A stretch of 64,000 nucleotides of DNA from Sideroxydans sp. GTDB lineage: Bacteria; Pseudomonadota; Gammaproteobacteria; Burkholderiales; Gallionellaceae. Below, one piece after another: positions 1 through 9,226 of the stretch. A program made the translations under genes and the position numbers. Numbering within the stretch: the first letter of the stretch is position 1; the number at the start of each line of letters is the position of its first letter. The notes below the pieces were generated by a model that worked only from the letters and a program-made list of their open reading frames with translations, was not told the origin of the DNA and did no database searches. The stretch spans positions 62,001-126,000 of the forward strand of contig JAQTTU010000006.1 of NCBI GenBank assembly GCA_028710605.1, given 5' to 3'.

Positions 1-693
1 CATTACAGCACAGCATTCGCTTTTTCCACCATCCTCTACCCACTGTAGTTTCGGATAACCTTGCGGTCATCTTTGTCCGTCTTACTGACCAGACACTACA
101 TTGGGCTTACCACGTTCCGCACAAGTAACAGAGTTGGGAAGGTTCCGCCTTTTCGCCGGTGATCGTATGTCAGCGTATTTGCACCAAGCAAACAAATAAC
201 CGATCACGTGCCATTTTGGCCAGAGCCCGATACTACAAGTTGCGTTTGGCTCTACAAGCTTGACGACGTTTAACAGCGGTTCACATTACGTTAACCATCC
301 AACTCAGCCTAGTGCCTCATCCGGGTGCAACTCCCGAAATCACACCAAACCCCTCGCGGGGCTTGATATACCCCGTAAGGTGGCTACATTGTCAGAGCGC
401 TTAGCACCCCACCGTCACCAGTGGCGCACTGCTCCTAGACTACGAGGGGCTGAACCCTCGGTTTTGTCCATCCCGATACAACCAAGAATGTCAAAACAAT
501 TACTTATGCAGCTTACGCCGCTATGCAGTTTCCACGATGTTATCGTGTACGCTGCTATTGGGTACTTCTTCGGTACTTCATTGACGTTTGCACGCCTTCT
601 GTTTATTTAGATTGGCCAGCCACCAATTCAGATTCTCTCGTTCTCAACGTGACGAGAAGGTTCTTAGCACCTTTAGCGACGGTCGTGTCGCAC
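1..693 (-). mobile_element. Group II intron, 5' portion (domains I-III), runs off the window
   Basis: Read on the minus strand, the intron starts at 693 with the canonical GTGCG. It carries typical group II ribozyme blocks, for example the stretch around 390-450 and a domain III-like GGAACGTGGTAAGCCC at about 103-118. EBS2 is AAGCTGC (complement of 508-514), matching IBS2 GCAGCTT in the tRNA exon. EBS1 is GCTTGG (complement of 184-189), matching IBS1 CCAAGC directly 5' of the splice site. The EBS2-EBS1 spacing of about 320 nt is longer than in textbook introns. No maturase reading frame is seen in these 693 nt; it and domains V/VI should lie left of the window. Plus-strand ORFs here have no coding support. 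Confidence 0.85.
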
Positions 694-732
694 GCTTGGG
701 AAGCTGCCGTTCTACCATTGAACTACACCCGC
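694..732 (-). tRNA. tRNA-Gly (CCC anticodon), 5' exon interrupted by the group II intron
   Basis: The minus strand from 732 reads as the first 39 nt of a tRNA-Gly: acceptor GCGGGTG, D arm GTTC/GAAC, anticodon stem GCAGC, loop TTCCCAA with anticodon CCC, then GC. The next bases (CGT...) are intron, so the break lies in the 3' strand of the anticodon stem, between nucleotides 40 and 41. The remaining half should follow the intron outside the window. Whether the tRNA is restored by splicing or is dead cannot be decided here; a tRNA-Gly(UCC) could read GGG codons by wobble. Confidence 0.85.
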
Positions 733-6603: not shown

Positions 6604-7410
6604 CTAGATGGATGTCGAACGCTCGTCGAGCACCATGCACACCGGCATGTCGGTCCGATTTTCCTGCTCGGCATTTCCCAGACGGGCAATGACGGCGGTA
6701 GTGTTATCCGCGCCCTCGCCTTCGCGCGACAGCGCCCTATCGACCATTTCGATCAGGGCATCCTGCAAAGAGGGGGCGGCGCACAAGTCCCCCAACTCAC
6801 CATCCGTCAGCGGGCTCCAGAAGCCGTCGCTGCACAAGAGCAAGGTGTCGTTGTCACGCAATTCGATACCGGACGAGACCTCGACATAAAACATATCGTC
6901 CACGCCGCCCAGACAGTTGGTGATCTTGTTTCGATCCGGGTGGGTCTTCATTTCTGCCGGAGTGATGATTCCCCAGTCCGCCCACTGCTGTACCACCGAA
7001 TGGTCTTTGGTGACATTCGCCACCGCCCCGTCGCGCAGCAAATAGAATCTCGAATCTCCGGCATGGGCAAACCACAGTTGCCCGTCCTGCACCAGCGCGG
7101 CGACGCATGTGGTGCCCGGATGGCCGCCCAGTTGCTGTTCGCGCACATAGCGCGCGATCTCGTCGTGCCCGTCGCGCATGGTGAGGCGCAGGAATACTTC
7201 CGGCTCTTGCGCGCGGCCCCGCTCAAGATGGCTAAAGGCGCGCATGAACGTATTCACGGCGATCTGCGCGGCGATCTCGCCGTGCAAATGTCCGCCCATG
7301 CCGTCGGCCAGCACCAGCAACAGCGCGTCATTGGTATAGGAATAGCCCACCCGATCCTGGTTGTACTTGCGACCGCCGATGTGGTTTACCTGATGGACTG
7401 CGAACTTCAT
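6604..7410 (-). CDS. PP2C-family Ser/Thr protein phosphatase
   Basis: Metal-dependent phosphoserine/threonine phosphatase of the bacterial Stp/PrpC type. Visible motifs are the metal-binding LVLADGMGGH (about residues 33-42), HAGDSRFYLLRDG, KDHSVVQQW and the C-terminal GADNTTAV. The 268-residue length is normal and no membrane segment is seen, so it should be cytosolic. A GGGG ribosome site precedes the ATG. It is divergent from yicC. The natural partner would be a Hanks-type kinase; one starts at the far end of the window (63466), but no direct link is shown. Confidence 0.93.
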   Translation of the reverse strand: MKFAVHQVNHIGGRKYNQDRVGYSYTNDALLLVLADGMGGHLHGEIAAQIAVNTFMRAFSHLERGRAQEPEVFLRLTMRDGHDEIARYVREQQLGGHPGTTCVAALVQDGQLWFAHAGDSRFYLLRDGAVANVTKDHSVVQQWADWGIITPAEMKTHPDRNKITNCLGGVDDMFYVEVSSGIELRDNDTLLLCSDGFWSPLTDGELGDLCAAPSLQDALIEMVDRALSREGEGADNTTAVIARLGNAEQENRTDMPVCMVLDERSTSI

Positions 7411-7472
7411 TTTTCCCCTGATTTTTTGCGCGCCGGATTGTGTTCCGGGTCGGTGGCGGTATGCAATCGTAA

Positions 7473-7478
7473 TATAAT
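7473..7478 (+). promoter_or_regulatory. Candidate -10 box for the yicC operon
   Basis: A perfect TATAAT lies 41 bp before the yicC ATG in the 109-bp divergent gap with the PP2C gene. No convincing -35 hexamer is seen at the expected distance. Confidence 0.4.
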
Positions 7479-7519
7479 GCGCCGCATTCAGCCTGTGTAT
7501 TTTCTTTACTGGAGTCTCA

Positions 7520-8386
7520 ATGACCTACAGCATGACCGGCTTTGCCGTCGCCACCGCCGAATTCGATGGCGGTTCGCTCACCTTGGAACTGCGCTCGGTT
7601 AACCACCGTTATCTCGACCTGCAATTGCGCATGGCGGATGAATTGCGTTCGCTGGAACCCGCCTTGCGCGAAGCCATTTCCGCACAGATGACGCGCGGCA
7701 AAGTGGAATGCCGCATCGGCCATGCCGCGCGCCAGTCCGCGCAAAGCCCGGCGCGTCTCAACACGGCTCTGCTGCAACAATTGGCCTTGTGGAGCGAACA
7801 AGTGCGCGAAGTCCTGCCCAATGCCAGCGAACTTTCCGTTGCCGACGTGTTGCGCTGGAACGGCGTGCTGGAAAGCGCCGCGCTTTCTGCCGACACGTTG
7901 CAAGCCACGCTGCAACAACTGATGCAACAGGCCTTGCAGGAATTTGCCGCCTCGCGCCAGCGCGAGGGCGAGAAGCTCAAGCAGTTCATGCTGGAGCGCG
8001 TGGCGCAAATTGAAACCTTGCGCACCGGTGTCGCGCCGCGCATCCCGGCGGCCATCGCCGCTTACGAAACCAAGCTGCGCGCGCGCCTGCTCGAAGCGCT
8101 GGGCAGCGGAGACGACGAACGCGTGCGCCAGGAAATCACGCTGTACGCCAGCAAGGTCGATGTGGACGAAGAGCTGTCGCGCTTGCACACGCATCTCGAT
8201 GAAGTGAAGCGCGTGCTGGCCAAGGGCGGCGCGATCGGCAAAAGGCTGGATTTCCTGATGCAGGAATTGCACCGCGAGGCCAACACGCTGGGATCGAAAT
8301 CTGTGGATAGCGAAGTCTCGCGTTGCGCCATGGAAATCAAACTGCTCATCGAGCAAATGCGCGAACAAGTACAGAATATCGAATAG
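7520..8386 (+). CDS. yicC: YicC/YloC family endoribonuclease-type protein
   Basis: Conserved protein of the YicC family, members of which have been described as endoribonucleases affecting small-RNA turnover and stress survival. The 288-residue sequence opens MTYSMTGFAVATAEFDGGSL, the family hallmark, and ends with the conserved SKSVDSEVSRCAMEIKLLIE and EQMREQVQNIE. A GGAG ribosome site precedes the ATG. gmk follows after 9 bp and rpoZ after that, the classic yicC-gmk-rpoZ order. Function here is by family only. Confidence 0.95.
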   Translation: MTYSMTGFAVATAEFDGGSLTLELRSVNHRYLDLQLRMADELRSLEPALREAISAQMTRGKVECRIGHAARQSAQSPARLNTALLQQLALWSEQVREVLPNASELSVADVLRWNGVLESAALSADTLQATLQQLMQQALQEFAASRQREGEKLKQFMLERVAQIETLRTGVAPRIPAAIAAYETKLRARLLEALGSGDDERVRQEITLYASKVDVDEELSRLHTHLDEVKRVLAKGGAIGKRLDFLMQELHREANTLGSKSVDSEVSRCAMEIKLLIEQMREQVQNIE

Positions 8387-8395
8387 GAGAATTCC

Positions 8396-9016
8396 ATGTC
8401 CGGCAGTCTTTTCGTAGTCACCGCCCCCTCGGGCGCAGGCAAAACCACTCTGGTGCATGCCCTGCTCAACATCAATCCGCACATCAATCTGTCGGTGTCG
8501 TACACCACGCGCCAGCCGCGCGCGGGCGAAGTCAACGGCAAGGATTATCACTTCGTCAGCCGCGCCCAATTTCTGGAAATGGCGGCGCGCGGCGAGTTTC
8601 TGGAAAGCGCCGAGGTCTATGGCAATCTGTACGGCACTTCGCAAACCTGGATCACGCAGGAAATCGCCAAAGGCAACGACATCCTGCTGGAGATCGACTG
8701 GCAAGGCGCGGCACAAGTGCGCAAACTCTTCCCGGAATGCCTGAGCATTTTCATTCTGCCGCCGTCGCTGGAAGTGCTGGAACAGCGCCTGACCGGGCGC
8801 GGCAAGGACAATGCCGAGGTGATCGCCAAGCGCCTGGCGGCGGCGCACGAGGATGTGTCGCATGTCGCCGAGTTCGACTATGTTATTATCAACGACAACC
8901 TCAACGAGGCGCTGCGCGAGTTGAATGCAGTCGTGCTTGCCGCCCGTCTGCGAGGATCGCGCCAACTGGCAAGACATCAGCAACTCATCAACCAATTACA
9001 GAAACCGGAGAATTAA
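8396..9016 (+). CDS. gmk: Guanylate kinase
   Basis: Phosphorylates GMP to GDP with ATP, feeding GTP and (p)ppGpp pools. The P-loop is APSGAGKTT (about residues 10-18), followed by the GMP-binding SVSYTTRQPRAGEVNGKDY block and EIDWQGAAQVR. The 206-residue length is normal. An AGGAG ribosome site sits just upstream and rpoZ starts 3 bp after the stop. Linkage of gmk, rpoZ and a spoT-like gene is the standard proteobacterial order. Confidence 0.97.
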   Translation: MSGSLFVVTAPSGAGKTTLVHALLNINPHINLSVSYTTRQPRAGEVNGKDYHFVSRAQFLEMAARGEFLESAEVYGNLYGTSQTWITQEIAKGNDILLEIDWQGAAQVRKLFPECLSIFILPPSLEVLEQRLTGRGKDNAEVIAKRLAAAHEDVSHVAEFDYVIINDNLNEALRELNAVVLAARLRGSRQLARHQQLINQLQKPEN

Positions 9017-9019
9017 ATC

Positions 9020-9226
9020 ATGGCCCGCATCACCGTCGAAGATTGCATGAAGTACATCCCCAACCGCTTTGAGCTGACGCTGTCCGCCGCGTACCGCGCG
9101 CGCCAACTGGCCAACGGCGCTAGCCATCTGGTCGAAGCCAGCAAAGACAAACCCACCGTCGTCGCGCTGCGCGAAATCAGCGAAGGCAAGGTCGGCATCG
9201 AAATCCTAAATCGCGGCATGGCTTAA
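9020..9226 (+). CDS. rpoZ: RNA polymerase omega subunit
   Basis: Small core-polymerase subunit that assists beta' folding and forms part of one ppGpp site. The 68-residue product opens [20 protein letters not shown] and carries the conserved RARQLANGA region. A GGAG site overlaps the gmk 3' end. It is followed by a hairpin at 9234-9256 and then the bifunctional RSH gene. Confidence 0.96.

Follow-up and report, generated by a model that had tools for sequence, protein, structure and literature searches.

A group II intron in tRNA-Gly(CCC) genes that carries a complete tRNA-Gly(CCC) with a mostly altered target site

Where prophages and integrative elements use tRNA genes as insertion sites, they bring with them sequence that keeps the tRNA working, the 3' end being restored by site-specific recombination. 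Engineered home-and-rescue gene drives, which are man-made, CRISPR-based systems of insects, carry a working copy of the targeted gene that is altered at the target. Self-splicing introns in the anticodon region of bacterial tRNAs are described for group I, for example in cyanobacterial tRNA-fMet, and the part of the source used here mentions no carried tRNA for them (PMC3073962). In plastids, trnK is a tRNA gene with a group II intron and an intron-borne maturase, MatK; the system is organellar, its reverse transcriptase activity is lost, the spliced tRNA is the expected product and a spare tRNA goes unmentioned in the portion of the source that we drew on (PMC4424553). Most bacterial group II introns, according to that same portion, lie outside housekeeping genes (PMC4424553).

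The intron described here resembles mobile bacterial group II introns in its ribozyme core, in its EBS1/EBS2 pairing with the exon and in its protein with reverse transcriptase, maturase and HNH functions, but it differs from them in holding a whole tRNA in domain IV, an extra insertion near its 5' end and a 3' end that reads CC. Unlike most bacterial group II introns, as they are portrayed in the portion of PMC4424553 cited above, it lies in a conserved tRNA gene. With the tRNA group I introns it shares its place in the anticodon region of a bacterial tRNA and a predicted capacity for self-splicing, although its ribozyme and its mobility mechanism are different. It is like the prophages and integrative elements in target and, probably, in tRNA upkeep, except that a whole separate tRNA lies here inside a retroelement, and like engineered drives in joining insertion in a target gene to a carried altered copy, except that it is a natural bacterial retroelement whose recoding is incomplete (22/25 copies). 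In the open literature on introns and tRNA and on gene drives, we found no bacterial group II tRNA intron that carries a tRNA; subscription papers lay mostly outside that search, so this is no proof of absence. We consider it likely that the element is a homing group II retroelement with a built-in rescue tRNA, mostly altered at the target site.

The interrupted gene and its intron

The window, a stretch of 64,000 nucleotides of contig JAQTTU010000006.1 from Sideroxydans sp. (G000:C8:62001-126000, G000 being the window's genome), opens within a group II intron on the minus strand. A first-pass annotation, made from the window alone, had placed this intron in the anticodon arm of a tRNA-Gly(CCC) gene, and matches to RF02012 and RF00029, the IEP and both tRNA halves bear this out. 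The 5' half of the outer tRNA-Gly(CCC), which is the 5' exon, lies at window 694..732 (-) and ends in TTCCCAAGC. Directly after window 694 the intron starts with GTGCG (GTGCGACACG), a junction that had been read correctly, but the tRNA part before it, put at 40 nt, proved to be 39 nt long. The first 693 nt of the 2,691-nt intron fill window 1..693 (-), and the remainder extends along the same contig beyond the left edge of the window (extended intron locus L003), where the intron ends at G000:C8:60003 (-) and the 35-nt outer 3' half, which starts with TGC, occupies G000:C8:59968-60002 (-). The gene is split in the 3' strand of the anticodon stem.

Read along the minus strand, the intron comprises the D1-D4 core, a complete tRNA-Gly(CCC), a 553-aa ORF and domain V/VI ending in TACCCTCC, after which the outer tRNA 3' half follows. 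The ribozyme domain I core was matched by Rfam group-II-D1D4-7 (RF02012) at window 313..461 (-) with 99.1 bits (gathering 34, E 1.5e-19), and domain V/VI by RF00029 at G000:C8:60003-60079 (-) with 68.8 bits (gathering 40). The IEP ORF at G000:C8:60098-61759 (-) encodes a group II reverse transcriptase/maturase with HNH (TIGR04416, 372 bits, cut-off 300), and its RVT_N, RVT_1, GIIM and HNH domains are all above cut-offs. The maturase, domain V/VI and a tRNA 3' half starting with TGC had been predicted to lie left of position 1, and all three were found there. Beyond the view of that annotation was the inner tRNA-Gly(CCC), detected by both ARAGORN and Rfam at G000:C8:61777-61850 (-), inside the intron and just upstream of the IEP ORF.

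Group II introns usually end in A plus a pyrimidine, which is a consensus rather than a strict requirement. The 3' end of the present intron (L003 4004-4010, -) and of its homologues is CC in 25 of the 26 clade members with a placeable end, and AC in L108. Domain I of the tRNA-borne clade also holds, close to its 5' end, an additional insertion of variable length that is not seen in five tRNA-free relatives used for comparison (window 690-500, -, and homologues). The window's genome has a second reverse transcriptase gene, of 547 aa (L004 2735-4378, -, on G000:C15), which is no close kin of the intron protein.

A search for the uninterrupted gene in relatives, proposed together with the first reading of the locus, was positive. 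The joined outer halves make 74 nt, and 40 of 150 family genomes have this sequence without interruption and with 100% identity; some match to it is present in 145 of the 150 when half genes, inner copies and other alleles are counted. The uninterrupted gene was typed by ARAGORN as tRNA-Gly(CCC) at all 5 loci checked. The congener L140 offers an empty site, with the uninterrupted gene between both flanks of the window's locus (the upstream flank is 78% identical across 1,497 nt, the downstream flank 80% across 1,399 nt).

A second tRNA-Gly(CCC) inside the intron

An IEP search of the 150 family genomes picked out 9 genomes, among them that of the window, with identities of 86-100%; the arrangement is the same in all nine, and below these the identity drops straight to 58%. 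ARAGORN detected a tRNA at 0 of nine loci of such lower-class IEPs, and six longer stretches around lower-class introns held none. We then scanned one genome per species (84,980 species) with two peptide patterns, and since loci were collected through these patterns, clade members that do not have them could be missed. The scan gave 27 loci with IEP identities of 71-99% in Gallionellaceae, Rhodocyclales, Oxalobacteraceae and Methylocaldum, isolates included. A tRNA-Gly(CCC) broken after TTCCCAAGC and an inner tRNA-Gly(CCC) were both present in 25/25 testable elements, that is, the 27 loci minus L099, an N-gapped near-copy of L098, and minus L110 and L114, which are cut by contig ends, plus L003, with L109 scored through its other end, L172. 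The clade alignment likewise has 25 rows, but with L099 and without L172; scripted comparisons of inner and outer tRNA cover 24 elements, L172 having been compared by eye. In an IEP tree that left out L063, L064, L065, L066, L099 and L110, the 25 carriers formed one clade with support of 100/100 against 9 tRNA-free relatives. One carrier, L107 (Massilia sp. Bi118), has at 6675-9160 a second reverse transcriptase ORF of 605 aa between the IEP of the tRNA intron and the tRNA 3' half; its single domain V match lies at 9002-9097, and the locus may be a nested intron or one with a replaced 3' end.

An assembly artefact, or a chance tandem of two tRNA genes, would be the most trivial source of such an arrangement, and several carriers are indeed MAGs, while in L099 the join between the two tRNA repeats is N-gapped. 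The same order of parts nevertheless recurs on contigs of the strains Duganella alba FT9W, Massilia sp. Bi118, Methylocaldum sp. 14B, Azonexus sp. R2A61, Duganella sp. CF517 and the MAG chromosome CP054864.1, and we regard this explanation as extremely improbable.

All 42 tRNA places of the window's genome were typed, and the inner copy is the sole intact CCC gene among them; the other glycine tRNAs are one TCC and two GCC. When 28 carrier genomes were searched with a CCC pattern, 25 had exactly one exact uninterrupted match, each of them the inner copy (24 were placed by coordinates on the locus itself and one in a split element). The remaining 3 had zero exact matches, and there the assembly is gapped or ends. 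Matches with 1-2 mismatches were mostly TCC tRNAs as judged by the anticodon loop, and one, in G162, was an intron-exon junction. In a wider order sample, 38 of 160 genomes had no exact match to the CCC tRNA pattern and may lack the tRNA or have divergent forms. The first-pass annotation had asked whether a functional tRNA is made by splicing of the outer gene, perhaps with maturase help. This is probably not the main point, because the intron carries its own intact tRNA-Gly(CCC), the genome's only intact CCC gene.

The fold of the inner tRNA is kept: across 12 distinct inner alleles and two relics, 97.6% of 294 cells are paired, and at 8 of 21 pairs both partners have changed. Covariation reached 0.333 in this set, whose rows are related; shuffling gave 0.110 and sliding no more than 0.077, and one of five pairing measures (further pair types) was not above shuffles. 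The standard 27-43 pair is absent in 5 of 14 inner or relic sequences, as it is in some native alleles. A simple scan upstream of the inner copy on the intron's strand found no promoter-like site.

In the 8 elements measured, 15-17 nt separate the end of the inner tRNA from the IEP start codon, and it is here that domain IV leads into the ORF in the relatives that have no tRNA. Such a position would suit a tRNA that serves the intron itself, either as a processing signal that frees a short-leader IEP message or as a binding site for the IEP in domain IV. However, neither processing nor binding needs a CCC anticodon, of the broken gene's own kind, and a copy that outlives its intron would be left unexplained. 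We hold a service to the intron to be quite unlikely as the reason for the inner tRNA, although it could be an added role.

Guide pairings and the target site of the inner copy

EBS1, GCTTGG at window 184..189 (-), pairs with IBS1 CCAAGC, the final six nt of the 5' exon. It had been placed there from the window alone, and comparison upheld the choice: the EBS1 loop is TGCTTGGT in 25/25 rows of the tRNA-clade alignment, and homologous loops fit the exons of introns elsewhere, pairing (by eye) with their own IBS1 in L082 and L086 and with one mismatch in L083. The EBS2 proposed at the same time, AAGCTGC at window 508..514 (-), did not survive the clade comparison; the letters are present, but they belong to a small hairpin, as its 3' arm, and this hairpin changes from element to element independently of the exon. 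We placed EBS2 at window 255..261 (-), in the loop AAGCTTG, whose AAGC pairs with GCTT of the anticodon arm, because the homologous loop fits exons of introns at other sites. By eye, it matches the upstream exon of the related introns L082, L083 and L086 (loop/exon ACATT/AATGT, ACATAC/GTATGT and ATCAG/CTGAT, respectively), and within the tRNA clade its core AAGC is found in 25/25 rows. From the EBS1 and EBS2 loop matches it follows that the intron recognises GCTT-C-CCAAGC, which is the anticodon loop with its two closing pairs, and the intron sits immediately 3' of this sequence. Recognition of the 3' exon by EBS3-IBS3 is given as a group IIB feature in the portion of the literature source used (PMC4424553); a search for EBS3 by covariation in the clade found nothing clear.

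The inner tRNA was identical to the outer one in 0/24 elements compared by script. The target core GCTTCCCAAGC with T at +1 is present in 24 of 25 interrupted outer genes, and in the remaining one, L103, position +1 is A. Among uninterrupted genes, the 3' side of the core (GC then T) was seen by eye in 108/120 native genes of the order sample, namely 124 rows minus the inner copies of G000 and G024 and the relics of G509 and G539, and in 85/88 genes of an Oxalobacteraceae sample, namely 91 rows minus the carriers G160, G161 and G166. The two samples share some genomes and were therefore counted apart, not pooled. Eight of the 12 native rows without the target core were inspected and had no intron; the rest are G549, G506, G511 and G547.

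The target core was changed in 22/25 inner copies as against 12/120 native genes (Fisher 1.6e-14), and when distinct alleles were counted, 9 of 12 inner alleles were changed at the target (Fisher 1.9e-6). Eighteen of the changed copies differ solely at +1 and 4 in IBS1, which reads CCAACC, three of these having A at +1 too. This IBS1 form occurs in 4/25 inner copies and 0/120 native genes (Fisher 0.0007), and also in both relics. In L106 and L111 the inner and outer tRNAs differ by two positions that make up one base pair, and the 3' exon begins with the 3' partner of this pair; L108 has four differences, the IBS1 pair among them. Since a base pair located at the insertion point or beside it is different in most cases, the inner copy should usually be less well recognised, and its changed stem presumably lowers re-insertion. 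We do not claim strict immunity: of the 22 changed copies, 18 can still pair with EBS1 and EBS2, the inner copies of L100, L104 and L172 (3/25) have the whole target unchanged, and position +1 does not block insertion absolutely, because at the site of the L103 intron it is A. Some inner alleles also occur naturally in other taxa; therefore, the carried tRNA may have come from hosts in which the native gene makes a poor target.

Intron decay and the proposed spread and rescue

Two genomes of the order sample contain what is left of decayed introns. G509 retains the tRNA together with 175 nt of domains III/IV (78%, E 3e-34), and G539 retains the tRNA and 28 nt beyond it (100% identical to L101, E 2e-8), after which comes a 318-aa ORF, transposase-like by eye. 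In both genomes the former inner copy is the only exact CCC match.

The outer tRNAs of the carriers look intact or equal native alleles, which would also fit a spliced, working outer tRNA. A C-T stem mismatch had raised the idea of decay in the outer tRNA of L105 and L107; we rejected this, as the same stem is found in uninterrupted genes of relatives (5 of 6 loci: L153, L154, L156, L157 and L158; the 5' half of L155 is degenerate). If the outer tRNA worked through efficient splicing, the inner one could be a passenger, acquired a single time and since maintained by chance or through exchange with copies on the chromosome; different inner alleles are carried by close introns (L097, L100, L102, L103 and L113), as would be expected of such swapping. 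A mere passenger, on the other hand, would not be expected to stay tRNA-like in 25/25 elements whose IEP identity goes down to 71%, to be the sole survivor of two decayed introns, or to show so strong a bias at the target site. Taken together, these data make a working outer gene with a passenger inside it unlikely, and we return to the reading of the inner copy as a rescue tRNA.

We compared introns with their flanks in ten pairs. The introns of L003 and L088 are 97.8% identical and their flanks 83% and 86%; those of L091 and L112 are 98.0% identical, with an upstream flank at 80% and a downstream flank that is unalignable; for L097-L102 and L100-L102 the introns exceed 91% and the flanks are unalignable. 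Because the introns are more alike than the flanks in the alignable pairs, this comparison suggests that the intron spread after host divergence. No plasmid record covered 80% of the intron's first 706 nt and no phage record covered 80% of the whole intron, weak partial matches being seen in both, and no viral contig encoded a relative by the patterns used.

From sequence we infer that the intron actively retrohomes and that the inner tRNA is transcribed, processed and used in translation. In the mechanism that we propose, the intron would home into tRNA-Gly(CCC) through pairing of EBS2 and EBS1 with the anticodon arm, its RNP inserting into an uninterrupted gene, and the tRNA-Gly(CCC) of domain IV, just upstream of the reverse transcriptase gene, would replace the gene thus broken. 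The outer tRNA promoter would probably drive read-through into the inner tRNA, which ordinary tRNA-processing enzymes would free for use in translation, with an IEP message of short leader as the by-product. Uncut transcripts could splice to give RNPs and perhaps an outer tRNA. The host would come to depend on the carried tRNA, so that the intron would be hard to lose, and on the death of the intron the replacement tRNA would remain as a host gene. On balance, and with less assurance than for the rescue tRNA itself, we favour a natural home-and-rescue lineage that spreads among proteobacteria, whose replacement tRNA is selected to escape the element's own targeting and stays when the intron dies.

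It is also of note for annotation that the one intact tRNA-Gly(CCC) found in these genomes lies within an intron. The intron lineage seems to make up for its insertion in a conserved tRNA gene with a spare whose target is mostly altered. If this is true, it would be a precedent in nature for the rescue principle of engineered gene drives and a test case for splicing and tRNA processing competing over one transcript, and it would give a selfish element a route by which to replace a tRNA gene of its host.
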